A program made the position numbers and the translations under genes. A DNA stretch of 64,000 nt from Morinoia aosen (lineage: Eukaryota > Arthropoda > Malacostraca > Amphipoda > Talitridae): assembly GCA_030386875.1 (NCBI GenBank), contig CM059567.1:81399130-81463129 (forward strand). The letters are read 5' to 3'. Below the pieces are notes generated by a model. It ran no database searches and had not been told where the DNA came from. It was given only the letters and a program-made list of their open reading frames with translations. Shown here piece by piece: positions 18,992-59,785 of the stretch. Positions within the stretch are counted from its first letter, which is position 1. The number at the start of each line of letters is the position of its first letter.

Positions 18992-18999
18992 ATACTACC

Positions 19000-20716
19000 C
19001 GGGGATGGAAAAAACCCTGGGTTTTTTAAAACAACCCAACCCACGTGGGTTTTTTTGGGTTAATTTTTTTTGGGGTTTATTGTTTTTTTTGGGGGGCTTT
19101 ATTGTTTTTTGTAATACCTGTTTTTGTTTAAAAGAGTTATTCATACAGCTCCACTTGCCTCTTTTTCAGATTTATATATATACACTTTTTGAGTAAATAT
19201 TGTTATTTGATTACTTCATTTCCAACATTATATTACATTATTATATGAATTATTACATTATATGAGCAATATATGAATTAAGTTTGCCCATCACAATTAC
19301 CATTTACCAATTACCATATGCATAGGGACATATGTAGCTCTGCAGTCTGTAAAAATGTAAGATGCACAAAGAGAATTGCTATGCTTGTCAATTCATAGTA
19401 AGTTGTTTTTAGCAGCAGACAGACGCAAGTCATGAGAGAGGGAAGCACCATGCAGATCATAAGTAACCACCACAAGCAACTTGAAGCAAGACAGCTGCAC
19501 ATCACTTAACAGTCATGCTGTTAACAACTTAACATGTGTATTGTGTGAGCTGGAGGGCTTAGCAGCGCAAGCCAAGTCAGTCAACCACACTGTTACATGT
19601 TACAACATGTTGTGACATGCCAAAATTTTTTTTTTTAAATTTACCAAAAAAATCACTTTTTGCAGTTCAGGATAGCAACAAACACTAAAATAATTAGAAA
19701 TAAATGCTCTAACAGATTCCATCGTCAAATTTGTTCCAGTGCACCTTGAATGCTCACCATAGGCCAGTCGTTTCTTTACTTTCTCACCCCATGATGGCTG
19801 CGGTCGTGTCTTACCCCATCTGACTATAATTGTTAGACTTATTTCAGGCAAAGCTCTCACAGGAGACACATATTGAAGAGTGGTTGGCTGAGTACAATCA
19901 GGAGTTTATCGGTGCGATTTATTCGTATAAATTGAAGGACTCCAACATCTTCCCAAAACACATGTTCTACAAGAGTATCACTAAGACAATGACTCCTCGT
20001 TGATGGTGGGATATTCAAGACATGAAACAGTAGAAAATGCCGATTTCTGAAAATACACTGACAGAGGGTTTCTGCAAGTTTATAAGCAATCTTCATTCTT
20101 GCTTCGCAAGTTCAGGATCCATTGAGAGAATTTTCTAAACATTTGGAATTGTGTGGAATAAATTGAGAAATAGATTCTGATCGGAACGCGCACAGAAATT
20201 GGTCTCATTATATCGCCACCTCACAAATGATCATGATGTGGATGACAATGATGAAATGGCAGTGAATGTAGAAAGAGAAATACAGTAGTACTGTAGTAGC
20301 AGTCTAGTCTAGGAGACAGAGGGAGAATTCAGAAGTCTCTATACCTTCAAATAGTCAAACTGCATTTGTTTCTTAGTTTTTGTTTTTTACTTTGGAAATG
20401 GAACTCATGGAAGTATACTAGTCCCTCGAGTTTTTTTTTTGTGATTAGGGTTTATTATTTTATTTTTATAGTGGTGTTTTTTTTTGTTTTTCAATATTTA
20501 TTGTCATAAGTCATGCAAATGCCTTGGACAAATTTTTGACAATATAAATATTTAGCTCATTTTGATTCTATAAGCTTGAAAACAAGTGAAATTAAAATAG
20601 CACTAATAAAACCCAAAAAAGCCCCAAAAACCCCGCTATTTAGTGTTTTTTTACGTGGGTTTTTTTGGGCTTTTTGGGTGTTTTTTTTTGGGTGGGTGTT
20701 TTATGTGCCAACCCTG
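19000..20716 (+). mobile_element. hAT transposon, copy 1 (non-autonomous, 1.7 kb)
   Basis: Flanked by a perfect 8-bp direct repeat ATACTACC (18992-18999 and 20717-20724), the hAT target-duplication size. The ends are CGGGGATGG (from CAGGGATGG) and CCAACCCTG, a 9-bp imperfect terminal inverted repeat of the CAGGG type typical of hAT. Both subterminal arms are built of short G-run/T-run strings such as GGGTTTTTT, with a 14-bp palindrome AACCCACGTGGGTT at 19038-19051. The interior carries a decayed plus-strand transposase C-terminus (19842-20288). At 1.7 kb it is shorter than autonomous hATs (usually 2.5-5 kb), so the transposase N-terminus is missing. Confidence 0.9.
19842..20288 (+). pseudogene. 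hAT transposase C-terminal (dimerisation) domain, copy 1
   Basis: A 149-codon frame reads WLAEYNQEFIGAIYSYKLKD, FPKHMFYKSITKT, then ERIF-stop-TFGIVWNKLRNR, SERAQKLVSLYRHLTN, and an acidic DHDVDDNDEM tail. The ERIF..G....K.RNRL....LV.L..HL pattern is the hallmark of the hAT C-terminal dimerisation domain. In-frame stops are TGA at 20001, TAA at 20136 (at the usual Ser of the ERxFS motif), and a private TGA at 20178 (Gly codon in the other copies). The first two are shared with the other two copies. Upstream, after a frame change, further degenerate coding is faint. Confidence 0.82.
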
Positions 20717-20724
20717 ATACTACC

Positions 20725-22654
20725 CGGTCTGAAAACTTACACTCAGAGTGAACTGAGTGTTGCATTTGTTTACATTTTTATGTGAAAGTTACAACTATGA
20801 AGGATTTCTTGTTGCAATAATGTAGAATTGGTCTCCTAATTTTTTCTTGCCCTGTGTTATTGTAAGTCAGATTAATCTGTCGACACATTTGAAGGTAAAA
20901 CCCTTGATATTTTTATAATTTTGTGTCGTTAATTCTGAAGAATGTTCTCATTAGTTGCACAATTGGTGCTCTGAATTTTACGGTTCAGTGTTGCTGTTTC
21001 TTATTGTTTCATTTTTCTATTTGCTTGCTACGCTGACAATTGAAAAATTCCATTCTAACTCTCTAAATTAGAATGTGCACCAAAGTGGCCAAAATTATTT
21101 TTAGTTAAAATCAAGGGAATGATCGAATCACCGGGAATAAAATCACCGGGAATGATCGAATGATAAATTAAAATTAGCAATCCTAACACAGAAGATGAAC
21201 CGGATGCCCTTTCTGTTGAGCAATTTGTTATATTCTCTTCTCTTACTCATACAGTACGAAGATAAAAGTGTTGTACTACAGGAGTATCTTTTTGGCAGCC
21301 ATAGTGGCGGAACAGCGAGCCGAATGCCCCTATTTTCGCTGTGCGCGTTCGAGCAGGGACGCTCCGAGCCTCGTTCTCAGTGATGCAAGAAATTGGACTC
21401 CCAGCACCTATTCAACCATAAGCTCAGTTGTATGGGATAGAGCAGTGACCTAGGAGAATTCGGATCTTCAGACATTTTACCTCCGTGATGCATTGCTGGT
21501 GCCAGAATAAATTTTTCTAGTTCGACTTAAGTTCTTTACAAAGCACGCTGTTTCGCCACGAAAACGGAAACTTCGAAAATCCAGCCCCTCAGTAGGAGAG
21601 TGGGGCGAAGAGTGACCTCAACCTAGAAAGCTGCCCTGGCGATAACACAGACTGCAGGAATAGAAACTTGAATATCACTCAAATCGTATATCGAACATAT
21701 CACTTGAATTTAACCGACAATATGCATTGCACGGTTGATGATACAGTTAATTTTTTTTACATTCCCTAAGATCTTTTCATTGCTCTCATACATAAATAAT
21801 TTGGGATTCTTTATGGGTTATTAAACGCTGTTAATTTGATATGATATGTAAAACATATTTTCATATAACGATCCGCCGGTTTACCTATGTATATTTGGCT
21901 TCACTGCCGCTTTCTCGCGTAGTTTGCTGCCAATCATCGCTTGTGTTGCACCGAGCCTTCATTTCTGTTTCCGTTTGTTAATGGGCGCGATCTTTGCCCC
22001 TTTCACTGCCGAGTGCGGTGCTATGCTCCAGTGAATTCTGTACCGCCATTCTAGGGTGCTTGAGTGTTACGTCATATTACCAGCGTTAGTGTCTGTGAGA
22101 GTTTTCGAATTCCTGTTCTGACTCGTAATTCATTTCTGTGATGCTTGTGTATGGGTTACTGTTCGAATTTTCTCATTTTCATACTTTTCATCCATTCTGC
22201 GTTTGTTATTCATGACTTTTGAGTAAAAGTTATAGGAATTTTTCTCGGCACGTCTCTCTCTGTGACATGCTTAATGAAGCGCGTCCGACCAGGCTGCATA
22301 ATTTGTCACCGGCACTTTTTTGGCACCGTTTGACTACTAGTTATGGTTATTTGGTGTTTTATGTTTTGAAGCCTAGTGTTCATTTACTGGTGTTTTAGGC
22401 CTTAGTAAATTTGTGCTGTCAGCAAAGAGCAGCCGAGATTCCGTCTCCTCTCTCAGCGTCAAAACGCACAAAGTTTTAATTTATTTTGAAGAAACTCGGT
22501 CCGCAGTTTTGACGTTGGCGGATTGGTGCTTTCATTATTAGAGTGTGTTTTATCATTCTAAAACCTGTTGTAGAGGCATTCAGACTAAAACATTTCCACT
22601 GGAGAACTGTACAGATGCATCTTTCACCATGCTACATCACATCAGCAGTGTGGT
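20725..22654. other. Spacer between the hAT copies
   Basis: 1.9 kb of non-hAT sequence with one short local repeat (21115-21162) and no recognised gene. It is the original host DNA between two independent insertions. Confidence 0.7.
21115..21162. repeat. Short local repeat
   Basis: GGGAATGATCGAATCACC, then GGGAATAAAATCACC, then GGGAATGATCGAATG: three imperfect units of 15-18 bp in tandem. Confidence 0.7.
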
Positions 22655-23065
22655 GTACTGTGCAGGGTTGGCACATAAATAACCCACCCAAAAAACCCAC
22701 CCAAAAAAGCCCCAAAAAAAACACATTAAAAAACCCACTAAATAGTGTTTTTTTGGGGCTTTTTTGGGTTTTATTGGTGCTATTTGAATTTCACTTGTTT
22801 TCAAGCTCATAGAATCAAAATGAGCTAAATATTTATATTGTCAAAAATTTGTTCAAGGCATTTGCATGGCTATGACAATAAATATTGAAAAAAAATACCA
22901 CTATAAAAATAAAATAAGAAAAACCCTAATCACAAAAAAAAAACTCGAGGGGCTAGTATATTTCTATGAGTTCCATTTCCAAAGTAAAAACAAAAACTAA
23001 GAAACAAATGCAGTTTGACTATTTGAGAGAAAAGAGACTTCTGAATTCTTCCTCTGTCTTCTAGA

Positions 23066-24729
23066 CAGGGATGGAAAAAACCCTAGGTTTTTTTAAAACA
23101 CTCAACCCACGCGGGTTTTTTGGGTTAAATTGGGTTTTTTGGGTTTTATAGTTTTTTTTGGGCTTTATTGATTTTTGGTAATACCTTTTTTTGTTTAAAA
23201 GAGTTACTCACATGGCTCTAGTTGCCTCTTTTCCAGATATATATACACTTATTGAGTAAATATTATTTGATTACTTTATTTCCAACATCATATTACATCA
23301 TTATATGAATTATTACATTCTATGAACAATATATGAATTAAGTTTGTCCATCACAATTACCACTTACCAATTACCATATGCATAGGGACATAGCTGTGCA
23401 GTCTGTAAAGATATAAGATGTGCAAAGAGAATCGCTATGCTTGTCAATTCATAGTAAGTTGTTTTAGCAGAAGGCAGACGCAAGTCATGTGAGAGGGAAG
23501 CACCATGCAGATTATAAGTAACCACCACAAGCAACTTGAAGCAAGACAGCTGCACATCACTTAACAGTCATGCTGTTAACAACTTAACATGTGTATTGTG
23601 TGAGCTGGAGGGCTTAGCAGTGCAAGCCAAGTCAGTCAACCACACTGTTACATGTTACAACATGTACAAAAATTTGTCAAAAAAATTACTTTTTGCAGTT
23701 CAGGATAGCAACTAACACTAAAATGATTAGAAATAAATGCTTTAACAGATTCCATCGTCAAATTTGTTCCAGTGCACCTTGAATGCTCACTATAGGCCAA
23801 TCGTTTATTTACTTTCTCACCCCATGATGGCTGCGGTCGTGTCTTGCCCCATCTGACTATAATTGTTAGACTTATTTCAGGCAAAGCTCTCAAAGGAGAC
23901 AGATATTGAAGAGTGGTTGGCTGAGTACAATCTGGAGTTTATCGGTGCGATTTATTTGTATAAATTGAAGGACTCCAACATCTTCCCAAAACACATGTTC
24001 AACATGAATATCACTAAGACAACGACTCCTCGTTGATGGTGTGATATTCAAGACATGAAACAGCAGAAAATGCAGATTCTTGAAAAAACACTGGCAGAGG
24101 GTTTCTGCAAGTTTATAAGAAATCTTCATTCTCGCTTCGCAAGTTCAGGATTCGTTGAGAGAATTTTCTAAACATTTGGAATTGTGTGGAATAAATTGAG
24201 AAATAGATTAGGATCGGAACGCGCACAGAAATTGGTCTCATTATATCGCCACCTCACAAATGATCATGATGTGGATGACAATGATAAAATGGCAGTGGAT
24301 GTAGAAAGAGAAATAAAGTAGTACTGTATTAGCGGTCTAGTCTAGAAAATAGAGGAAGAATTCAGAAGTCTCTTTACTCTCAAATAGTCAAACTGCATTT
24401 GTTTCTTAGTTTTTGTTTTTTACTTTGGAAATGGAACTCATGGAAATATACTAGCCCCTCGATTTTTTTTTGTGATTAGAGTTTTTCTTATTTTATTTTC
24501 ATAGTGTTTTTTTTAATATTTATTGTCATAGTGTTGTCGTGCAAATGCTTTGGACAAATTTTTGACAATATAAATATTTAGCTCATTTTGATTCTATAAG
24601 CTTGAAAACAAGTGAAATGCAAATAGCACCAATAAAACCCAAAAATGCCCCAAAAAAACACTATTTAGTGGGTTTTTAATGTGTTTTTTTTTGAGCTGTT
24701 TTGGGTGGGTTTTTTATGTGCCAACCCTG
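23066..24729 (+). mobile_element. hAT transposon, copy 2, nested inside copy 3
   Basis: Begins CAGGGATGGAAAAAACCC at 23066 and ends GTGCCAACCCTG at 24729, in the same orientation as copy 1. The flanking octamers are CTTCTAGA (23058-23065) and CTTTTATA (24730-24737), 6 of 8 identical. The sequence on either side rejoins to the continuous interior of the host copy (compare copy 1 near 20300-20330 in reverse), so this is a true insertion. The two mismatches in the target duplication suggest it is not very recent. Confidence 0.9.
23875..24321 (+). pseudogene. hAT transposase C-terminal domain, copy 2
   Basis: Exactly the same length (447 nt) as in copy 1 and readable over WLAEYNLEFIGAIYLYKLKD, FCKFIRNLHSRFASSGFVER, IWNKLRNRLG-type and SERAQKLVSLYRHLTN blocks. 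It keeps only the two stops common to all copies: TGA just before the W(C)DIQDMK block, and TAA in place of the Ser of ERIFS. The last codons are EREIK then TAG. Otherwise the frame is intact, so it is the best preserved of the three. Confidence 0.82.
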
Positions 24730-24756
24730 CTTTTATACTAGACCGCTACTACAGTA

Positions 24757-25203
24757 CTACTTTATTTCTCTTTCTACATCCACTGCCATTTTATCGTTGT
24801 CCTCCACATCATGATCATTTGAGAGGTGGCGATATAATGAGACCAATTTCTGTGCGCGTTCCGATCCTAATCTATTTCTCAATTTATTCCACACAATTCC
24901 AAATGTTTAGAAAATTCTCTCAACGAATCCTGAACTTGCAAAGCAGGAATGAAGATTGCTTATAAACTTGCAGAAACCCGCTGCCAGTGTTTTTTCAAGA
25001 ATCTGCATTTTCTGCTGTTTCATGTCTTAAATATCTCACCATCAATGAGGAGTCGTTGTCTTAGTGATATTCATGTTGAACATGTGTTTTGGGAAGATGT
25101 TGGAGTCCTTCAATTTATACAAATAAATCGTACCGATCAACTCCGGATTGTACTCAGCCAACCACTCTTCAATATCTGTCTCCTTTGAGAGCTTTGCCGG
25201 AAA
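24757..25203 (-). pseudogene. hAT transposase C-terminal domain, copy 3
   Basis: The minus-strand 447-nt counterpart of the domain in copies 1 and 2, ending in a TAG at 24757-24759. It keeps the same TGA and the same TAA inside ERIF-stop-TFGIVWNKL, plus private changes. The plus-strand open stretch here (MKIAYKLAETRCQC onward) is the antisense of this domain, not a separate gene. Confidence 0.8.
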
Positions 25204-26056
25204 TAAGTCTAACAATTATAGTCAGATGGGGCAAGACACGACCGCAGCCATCATGGGGTAAGAAAGTAAATAAACGACTGGCCTATGGTGAGCATTCAAG
25301 CTGCACTGGAACAAATTTGACGATGGAATCTGTTAGAGCATTTACTTCCAACCATTTTAGTGTTTGTTGCTATCCTGTACTGCAAAAAGTGATTTTTTTG
25401 ACAAATTTAAAGAAAAAATTTTGGCATGTCACTACATGTTGTAACATGTAACAGTATGGTTGACTGACTTGGCTTGCACTGCTAAGCCCTCCAGCTCACA
25501 CAATACACATGTTAAGTTGTTAACAGCATGACTGTTGAGTGATGTGCAGCTGTCTTGCTTCAAGTTGCTTGTGGTGGTTACTTATGATCTGCATGGTGCT
25601 TCCCTCTCACATGACTTGCGTCTGTCTTCTGCTAAAACAAATTACTATGAATTGACACGCATAGCGATTCTCTTTGCACATCTTATTATTCTTATATCTT
25701 TACAGACTGCACAGCTATGTCCCTATGCATATGGTAATTGGTAAGTGGTAATTGTGATGGACAAACTCAATTCATATATTGTTCATAGAATGTAATAATT
25801 CATATAATGATGTAATATAATGTTGGAAATAAAGTAATCAAATAACAATATTTACTCAATAAGTGTATATAAATCTGGAAGAGAGGCAACTGGACCTATG
25901 TGAATAACTCTTTTAAACAAAAAAGGTATTACAAAAAACCCAATAAAGCCCAAAAAAAACCAATAAAACCCAAAAAAACCCTATTTAACCCAAAAAAACC
26001 CACGTGGGTTGGGTTTTTTTAAAAAACCCAGGGTTTTTTCCATCCCTGGTACTGTG

Positions 26057-26889: not shown

Positions 26890-27260
26890 GCGCAGAGTTG
26901 TGCAGCAGTGCAGAGCTGTGCAGCAGTGTGGCGTGCAGAGCTGTGCAGCAGTGCGGCGTGCAGAGCTGTGCAGCAGTGCGGCGTGCAGAGCTGTGCAGCA
27001 GTGCAGCGTGCAGAGCTGTGCAGCAGTGCGGCGTGCAGAGCTGTGCAGCAGTGCGGCGTGCAGAGCTGTGCAGCAGTGCGGCGTGCAGAGCTGTGCAGCA
27101 GTGCGGCGTGCAGAGCTGTGCAGCAGTGCGGCGTGCAGAGCTGTGCAGCAGTGCGGCGTGCAGAGCTGTGCAGCAGTGCAGCGTGCAGAGCTGTGCAGCA
27201 GTGCGGCGTGCAGAGCTGTGCAGCAGTGCGGCGTGCAGAGCTGTGCAGCAGTGCAGCGTG
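26890..27260. repeat. 25-bp minisatellite, about 15 units
   Basis: Two shortened 20-bp units (26890-26930) precede 13 full units of 25 bp from 26931. Each unit contains GCGTGCAGAGCTGTGCAGCA plus GTGCG. Units differ almost only at one base: A instead of G at 27005, 27180 and 27255. Because 25 is not a multiple of three and the unit has no stop in any forward frame, long Cys/Ala-rich open frames run through it in all three forward frames and on the reverse strand. These are by-products, not genes. Confidence 0.95.
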
Positions 27261-27896
27261 CGGCCCTCGGCCGTAACCATGGCGATGCGCCTGTCCAACA
27301 TTTCCGCCGTGGTCATTCTGGTGATCAGTTGTTCATTATTGTACATACATGTCCTGTGTTAATTCATTATGGGGACTTCAATCCTTGAATTATTGTCTAT
27401 TCAGGTTAACGGGTTTGGTCGTTACTGCTCTTCAGCTAAAATGTCAAATCAGTTATTGTCTCTTCGATTCTTTTCATCAGGCTATGATTGCCCATTCAAC
27501 TCCTGTGCTTATTTCACTGTTGTTTCTTCAAGTTACATGCTTACCCCGATATTGTGATTATCATCAATTTTAGTTTTGTACTCTCGTATTCCCTCCTTGT
27601 AGTAATTCTTTTGTATTCTATTTTTCTATCGCTTACGTGTTTTTCGATTTTTTGTTTATAAACCCTAGCTTTAATCTTCCGAAGACTCAGCTGATGAATT
27701 AGGATGGAGTAATTCCACTTGAAATTCAGCGTAGGACTTTCAATATTGATTCTCTGTTGATCCGTGGTAATGCGCATCAACAATTACCCAGCGCGTAGTG
27801 CTTCAGACCAGCAGCATCATCCTGCTCTCTGCCCACCGACCTGACGCGATGCTGGCCGCTCTGTCGTCACGCCACCGCGCCTGCTCGCGTGCTTAC
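27261..27896. other. Non-coding, nothing recognised
   Basis: Unique sequence between the minisatellite and the MITE candidate, somewhat GC-richer near 27820-27900. Confidence 0.65.
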
Positions 27897-59049: not shown

Positions 59050-59785
59050 TAACATGTAAAAGGCGGGAACGCAGCCAAGACTTGCAGAAAGATATAATGT
59101 GTGTAATCTGTGTATGGGCATGGTGTTGTTACAGAACGTGCATTTCAGAAGTGGTTTGTACCATTCCGATTTGGAAATTTTTCACTTTATGCACCGCGTA
59201 CTGGGCGGCCAAATATGAATCACAACAATCAAGTGAAGAAGGTAATCGAAGATGAAAATCATATTACAACTCCACAAATCGCACACTCAACATTTATCCA
59301 AACACGGCGTCGCCAATCACTTAAACTTGGTTTCATTTCAAAACCAATGTTTGGATTTCTCAAAAATTGACTTCCGTCAGCCTCTTGCAAAGTATCGCCA
59401 TCTGCCTTACATTGCTTCGGCGGGAAGCAAATGGATCGTTGTTAAGAGAACTTGTCACTAGAAGTAAGAAAAGAATGCTGTATATCAATCTTGAGCGAAA
59501 ACGATTCTGGAAGCAGTCGAAGCAACAACCACTAACAAAATCTGAAGCAGGGCTCCATCCGAGGAAGTTATCGATGTCAATAGAGTGGGATTGGCAGGGT
59601 ATTGTCTTCCATGAACTTCCCATGAACAGCACCATCAGTTCAGATGTCTGTATTGTGCGCAACGTGATCAATCAAACGCAACTATCACATGTAAACGTCC
59701 ATCGTTAGCAGAAACATCCATCGCTAGCTAATCAGAAGAGCATTTCTAGCCACCATAACAACGCGAAAAATGTTAATAATGTTTT
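59050..59785 (+). pseudogene. Degenerate mariner transposase, 3'-truncated next to a SINE-B copy
   Basis: Readable blocks in order are NAAKTCRK (about 59068), YGHGVVTERAFQKWF (about 59113-59160), FGNFSLYAPRTGRPN, VKKVIEDENHITTPQIA (about 59240-59290), LVTRSKKRMLYINLERKRFW (about 59445-59510), GLHPRKLSMSIEWDWQG, then HHNNAK (about 59750). These follow mariner order. The GDEKW motif with the first catalytic Asp has become RSKKR, and the second catalytic Asp (HHDNA) is Asn. Frameshifts lie around 59370-59440. Coding similarity stops at about 59785; a SINE-B copy begins at 59814, and I do not see the mariner C-terminus on its far side. Confidence 0.8.

Follow-up and report, generated by a model that had tools for sequence, protein, structure and literature searches.

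In maize, a Ds transposon lying within another Ds in reverse orientation is known as double Ds, and this arrangement is a classic chromosome breaker. According to the available sections of one study (PMC3260210), all chromosome-breaking Ds have multiple ends, double Ds being named among them; nested Ds are rare and probably selected against since they break chromosomes, and no chromosome-breaking double Ds was found in maize B73. Here, we describe a double-Ds-like element in the amphipod Morinoia aosen, located in a stretch of 64,000 nucleotides (the window: assembly GCA_030386875.1, contig CM059567.1, hereafter C12, 81,399,130-81,463,129) and compared with the genome searched, which amounts to 1.99 Gb in 29 contigs. 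At 22663..26048 of the window (minus strand, 3,386 bp), one hAT element encloses a second member of its own family in inverted orientation; this is, very probably, one copy of a composite non-autonomous hAT element that originated in a single ancestral self-insertion and then moved as a unit.

The composite shares with double Ds the presence of a non-autonomous hAT element inside a member of its own family, with 8-bp duplications both inside and outside, as well as four ends that form two 3'/5' pairs in direct orientation. It differs by its abundance, about fifty dispersed copies apparently derived from one nest, compared with none in B73 as far as the accessible text of PMC3260210 goes. When the ends alone are compared, the Ac 5' end, C/TAGGGATGAAA (same sections of PMC3260210), is unlike the CAGGGATGGAAAAAACCC found here, which therefore points to a hAT family different from Ac/Ds; judging from these letters, the composite is double-Ds-like in layout and would not be a member of the maize Ac/Ds family.

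Other systems resemble it in part. The Ac macrotransposons, or composite insertions, of maize also comprise several hAT ends moving as one with an 8-bp duplication; in the available parts of their descriptions (PMC9910405, PMC4270019), however, they enclose host DNA by way of alternative transposition, whereas the composite described here is hAT throughout and very probably arose by plain self-insertion. Apart from the duplicated 8-mer, all of its 3,386 bp can be aligned with the hAT family, and no host DNA is enclosed. Plant Mutator-like elements (MULEs) with multiple terminal inverted repeats likewise possess extra internal ends, and some of their families have amplified with their own duplications, but they belong to another superfamily; in the accessible portions of PMC3310237, they have no duplication at the inner ends and nested insertion is argued against in the results, while the discussion keeps a nest with a lost duplication possible. 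Unlike in these MULEs, the inner duplication is retained in the composite and is identical on both sides in one locus (L079). The carrot DcSto elements, which are Stowaway-type miniature inverted-repeat transposable elements, include nested relatives, although amplification of a nest as a unit is not described in the sections of PMC3695323 available; foldback elements (Galileo, Tm1) likewise have long inverted arms. A search of open-licence papers returned no recognisable report of an amplified self-nested hAT element. The double-Ds layout itself is already known; here, a self-nested hAT element of this kind has turned into a dispersed family.

Anatomy of the nested element

The composite is bordered on both sides by a perfect 8-bp target site duplication (TSD), GTACTGTG (22655..22662 on the left and 26049..26056 on the right). 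The outer copy is split into a 3' part, whose outer 3' end lies at 22663 (22663..23065, minus strand), and a 5' part, whose outer 5' end lies at 26048 (24738..26048, minus strand). Between them sits the inner copy (23066..24729, plus strand, 1,664 bp), both ends of which are intact and whose orientation is the reverse of that of the outer copy carrying it. The left duplication of the inner copy, CTTCTAGA (23058..23065), constitutes the final 8 bp of the outer 3' part and is common to other composites; the right one, CTTTTATA (24730..24737), is an inherited variant, and the two differ by two mismatches. A third member of the family, the solo non-autonomous hAT copy (19000..20716, plus strand, 1,717 bp), belongs to another subgroup and is flanked by the duplication ATACTACC at 18992..18999 and 20717..20724.

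The two outer pieces align to positions 3-1312 and 1308-1717 of the solo copy, against which they rejoin as a continuous element; when the insert and one 8-mer are subtracted from the outer length (3,386 - 1,664 - 8), 1,714 bp remain, compared with 1,717 bp for the solo copy. Identity to the solo copy amounts to 89.7% for the inner copy and to 91.8% and 89.4% for the two outer pieces. An earlier note on this DNA had reported three nested or neighbouring hAT copies with their ends and 8-bp duplications, the restored length of the outer copy and an order of events in which the outer copy preceded the inner one; all three copies were found where it had placed them, and its length argument and its order of events hold.

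All three copies start with CAGGGATGG (with one changed base in the solo copy) and finish with GTGCCAACCCTG, and short terminal inverted repeats of the CAGGG type are present. The termini of the family were compared over 34 rows with both ends placed, drawn from the 39 further loci of the first genome search (7 partial ones were excluded and L046 was likewise unused) with the solo and inner copies added; hand counts give an exact CAGGGATGG start in 25 rows and an exact CCAACCCTG end in 30. The 8-bp duplication is perfect in 26 rows, has one mismatch in 5, two in the inner copy and six in two further rows, both of which resemble alignment effects (a one-base shift in L036; another copy adjoining L004). 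When the left 8-mer of one copy is paired with the right 8-mer of another, zero mismatches occur in just 3 of 1,122 pairings; these duplications are hence not due to chance, and their presence in the copies sampled therefore identifies the elements as hAT-type transposons. One of the loci, L002, is a duplicate of the window's solo copy. L046 (C12:74560000-74568000) contains two family members abutting in opposite orientation, the first being interrupted by about 250 bp.

Shared inner junctions and separate outer duplications

Searching the genome for the inner copy's last-exon protein gave 150 listed matches, many of which form opposite-strand pairs on many contigs; the spacing within pairs is mostly 865-879 bp, and that of the inner/outer pair of the window is 879 bp. 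Ten high-ranking loci from this search were read, two of them being the window and its duplicate. All of the eight others (L072-L079) match composite positions 1 to ~3,170 unbroken, at 96.5-97.5% identity; the nest is therefore a unit present in many places.

The right inner junction occurs at 49 places genome-wide with at most three mismatches, a reversed-pattern control giving none, and its duplication letters are CTTCTAGA in 28 cases, CTTTTATA in 19 and variants in 2. For the left inner junction, the same threshold yields 61 matches (control 0), 52 of which remain once nine matches, all at three mismatches and with other flanks, are dropped; 45 of these 52 are exact, and small sub-lineages have changed inner ends (4 at the left, 3 at the right). 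Inner junctions are spread over 22 contigs. A left junction accompanies 45 of the 49 right ones in the standard order, at a distance of 1,631-1,671 bp (window and duplicate counted). Set against the 964 five-prime ends of the family, the 49 junctions indicate that composites make up about 5% of its elements. A search for the footprint of an excised inner copy, with an exact pattern of one footprint form, gave 0 matches.

The outer ends tell the complementary part of the story. They were examined in 14 other composites, namely the eight aligned loci and 6 more high-scoring pairs: the outer 8-bp duplication is perfect in 13 of them and has one mismatch in the last, and that of the window is perfect. 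Over the 15 composites, these duplications are 15 different sequences in different flanks, next to outer ends with at most one mismatch in every case; each composite thus arrived by its own insertion via its outermost ends. This bears on the idea that composites owe their number to segmental duplication or gene conversion rather than to transposition. The window together with its composite is indeed duplicated about 2.55 Mb away, but different flanks and an own 8-bp duplication placed exactly at the outer ends in 15 of 15 composites make such a mode of multiplication very improbable.

The inner duplication is informative in its own right. In all eight aligned loci the left one is CTTCTAGA, and the right one is CTTTTATA in five, a one-letter variant of CTTTTATA in two and CTTCTAGA in one. 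Local decay was considered as the source of the 2-base mismatch and rejected, since other loci carry the same mismatch, which is hence inherited. In the simplest reading, the original inner duplication would have been CTTCTAGA on both sides, and one lineage, within which the window's copy falls, would have altered it.

A tree of 1,096 columns was built from nine composites plus solo copies, the latter being the top matches to the window's solo copy (best 40 of 1,866 candidates). The nine inner copies are monophyletic (support 100), as are the nine outer copies (support 100), their branching is largely mirrored, and the two clades are sisters in the sample (support 97, very short stem). L079, with its perfect inner duplication, is the first branch in the outer tree and the second in the inner tree. 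Mean differences are 1.75% between inner copies, 1.6% between outer copies and 3.6% between inner and outer copy at one locus; both halves differ from the solo copies by 5.0-5.3%, and the window's solo copy stands outside the composite group. Two former interpretations were superseded: the dating of the inner against the outer copy by divergence from the family (outer 2.5%, inner 3.2%, solo 5.5%), which had suggested old independent copies, and a weak sister pair (support 70); both gave way when the paired last-exon matches revealed the composite. The tree is equally relevant to convergence, whereby many independent insertions would have hit one internal target site. Nothing besides the identical position speaks for it, whereas in the nine composites of the tree inner and outer copies fall into a clade each, with a largely matching order, derived duplication letters are held in common, and order and orientation are alike in 45 of 49 cases; its probability is next to nil.

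The inner junctions are thus shared between composites, the outer duplications are separate and each half has a single origin; taken with the two clades and the inherited mismatch, this leads us to a single self-insertion that took place elsewhere and whose product was transposed as a unit. Because the same junctions exist at about 50 places and the composite has its own outer TSD, it reached the window already nested. The earlier note had taken the nesting to have happened on the spot and had suggested a landing zone that is locally active or preferred. The nest is real, the solo copy is only 1.95 kb away and close family pairs are in excess in a partial list; such a local event is nevertheless refuted by the same inner junctions on other chromosomes, their duplications often differing by the same two bases, and one self-nesting is within chance for ~915 elements (0.36 expected), so that we regard it as extremely improbable.

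Further copies, which the earlier note had asked for, are plentiful: 964 five-prime ends are found with at most two mismatches (control 0). With 915 elements landing at random, the expected numbers are 0.36 for self-nestings and 0.84 for pairs no more than 2 kb apart, so that a hot spot is not required to explain a single ancestral nest plus one solo neighbour. A landing zone at the window locus was rejected for the nest and is superfluous for the solo neighbour. In five solo copies whose duplications differ (L015, L017, L018, L024 and L028), the terminal branches measure 0.06-0.42%, from which it follows that the family moved recently.

We propose that in an ancestor, once, a 1.7-kb hAT copy entered a copy of the same family in reverse orientation and duplicated CTTCTAGA. 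The nested product would have retained its two outermost ends and, as a 3.4-kb unit, would have moved whole to about fifty places, with a fresh 8-bp duplication wherever checked; at the window locus, it would have landed in nested form, close to a solo copy unrelated to it. Ordinary cut-and-paste by a hAT transposase provided in trans may have driven this movement, and the four ends could also engage in aberrant reactions that break chromosomes, like those of maize double Ds.

Several points weigh against this account. Four of the 49 right junctions are without a standard partner (three at an odd distance or inverted, one with none), and four of the 52 left junctions stand alone. The 14 composites used for the outer duplications were chosen from high scorers and not at random, the solo sample in the trees leans towards kin of the window's solo copy, and L075 and L077 are placed differently, on short branches, in the inner and outer trees. 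Among 100 exact 5' ends listed (of 964), 12 neighbouring pairs lie less than 200 kb apart compared with 2.8 expected, an excess reached in 0 of 2,000 random sets (the sizes of two contigs were guessed and segmental duplications are included); some short-range hopping or segmental duplication therefore occurs in the family, and the family as a whole may tend towards short hops, which are not the cause of the window's nest. Finally, the autonomous relative with an intact transposase that the earlier note had hoped for did not appear: no autonomous partner with a full gene was found among the best 150 of 2,753 candidates for PF05699 (hAT C-terminal dimerisation region) or among the best 150 of 2,563 for the last-exon protein, and in a by-eye comparison none of the 126 matches from the best 150 of 351 candidates for PF04937 is next to a last-exon match. 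A related copy on contig C18, the one among the listed last-exon matches that is free of stops in this exon, has upstream of it the same short layout as the window copies (its 3' end was not read).

Transposase remnants and surroundings of the composite

The window copies are non-autonomous, their gene being reduced to its last exon with in-frame stops. Remnants of this exon occupy 19848..20285 in the solo copy (plus strand, in-frame stops), 23881..24318 in the inner copy (plus strand; hAT dimerisation region, below the Pfam cut-off) and 24760..25197 in the outer copy (minus strand). A window remnant scores 15.4 bits with PF05699, under the cut-off of 21.4, compared with 30.7 bits, over the cut-off, for the open last exon of the C18 copy. 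Two PF05699 matches are within about 5 kb of a last-exon match, on C5 at 33.25 Mb and on C21 at 77.52 Mb. Contig C21, ~6% of the genome, has 72 of the 150 PF05699 matches listed (hand count), many of them in runs at 4-6 Mb and 62-83 Mb with spacings of roughly 55-190 kb; for a single chromosome, this is an unusual accumulation of genes or elements related to hAT.

Positions 1-35,148 of the window recur on C12 about 2.55 Mb away, with 99.7% identity over the first 21 kb and all three hAT copies included. As this sole other copy found of the stretch holds all three, no empty site is available for any of them. Divergence between the duplicates varies from one part to another, being 0-0.3% per kb over 9-27 kb and reaching 6.5% near 29 kb; a true duplication that underwent conversion and a second haplotype misplaced in the assembly would each be consistent with this. 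Similar hAT ends at C12:81116477 and 83623951, 2.51 Mb apart, hint that the duplicated tract or misplaced haplotype extends at least 0.28 Mb further. At 21300-21307, the window has an empty site where the duplicate contains 10.4 kb whose end repeats, at least 202 bp long, are identical; from its frames, recognised by eye, we take this insertion to be a long terminal repeat retroelement. Directly to the right of the composite lies a G+C-rich 25-bp tandem repeat of 14.4 copies (26900-27261), and the end of an open frame at 59325-59708 resembles, judging from a motif, a mariner transposase. An Rfam scan of the window at gathering scores gave no match. Elsewhere in the genome, TTAGG arrays are common (15,049 overlapping matches to an eight-unit pattern; reversed control 0), as would be expected of an arthropod; one of them, C1:29645296-29645520, is internal to its contig and not terminal, and more matches lie at 49.09 Mb of C1.

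Inverted halves and possible chromosome breakage

Self-insertion in reverse orientation leaves the composite with a long inverted repeat, whose left arm of about 1.3 kb (23066..24347, plus strand) is 93% complementary to the right arm (24731..26048, minus strand) across a spacer of 383 bp. From left to right, the ends are ordered outer 3', inner 5', inner 3' and outer 5', which results in two adjacent 3'/5' end pairs in direct orientation; in the window composite, all four ends are intact in sequence. In maize, end pairs in direct orientation are engaged in sister-chromatid transposition, with chromosome breakage as a possible outcome (available text of PMC8225341), and by likeness to double Ds the composite could break chromosomes too. 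At one locus, L101 (C14:16292570-16293025), a single composite has its inner part inverted: the left junction lies in inverted orientation some 390 bp away from its right counterpart. The intervening stretch starts with the left junction's outer flank and resembles the inner 3' part (94.8%) more than the outer 3' part (91.3%). Recombination between the inverted arms would yield such a layout, and other rearrangements might do so too.

The inverted halves might themselves have aided the spread, for instance through extra transposase-binding ends or a hairpin RNA acting on the family. The ~1.3-kb arms with their complementarity and short spacer, the ~5% share of composites and the help that extra ends are proposed to give to some plant MULEs (accessible portions of PMC3310237) agree with this, but plain hitch-hiking accounts for the same facts, and we consider such an aid doubtful. 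More broadly, we tentatively suggest, as a minority possibility, that a double-Ds-type element, although expected to be purged for breakage, is now a successful dispersed family, and that either breaks are tolerated or prevented, or the halves are advantageous. Tolerance or prevention, if true, might come about, for instance, through the type of chromosome or through the use of the outer end pair only; advantage, if true, through inverted halves that give, for example, hairpin RNA.

For annotators, it follows that a nested insertion seen once should be called local only after a genome-wide search for its junctions, and that an imperfect duplication may be inherited and not the product of local decay. 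For the biology of these transposons, the family opens up the questions of which pairs of ends are really used by a hAT transposase and of whether damage to the inner ends is to a copy's benefit, and its roughly fifty natural double-Ds-like copies make it possible to ask directly whether this layout must be harmful outside maize.

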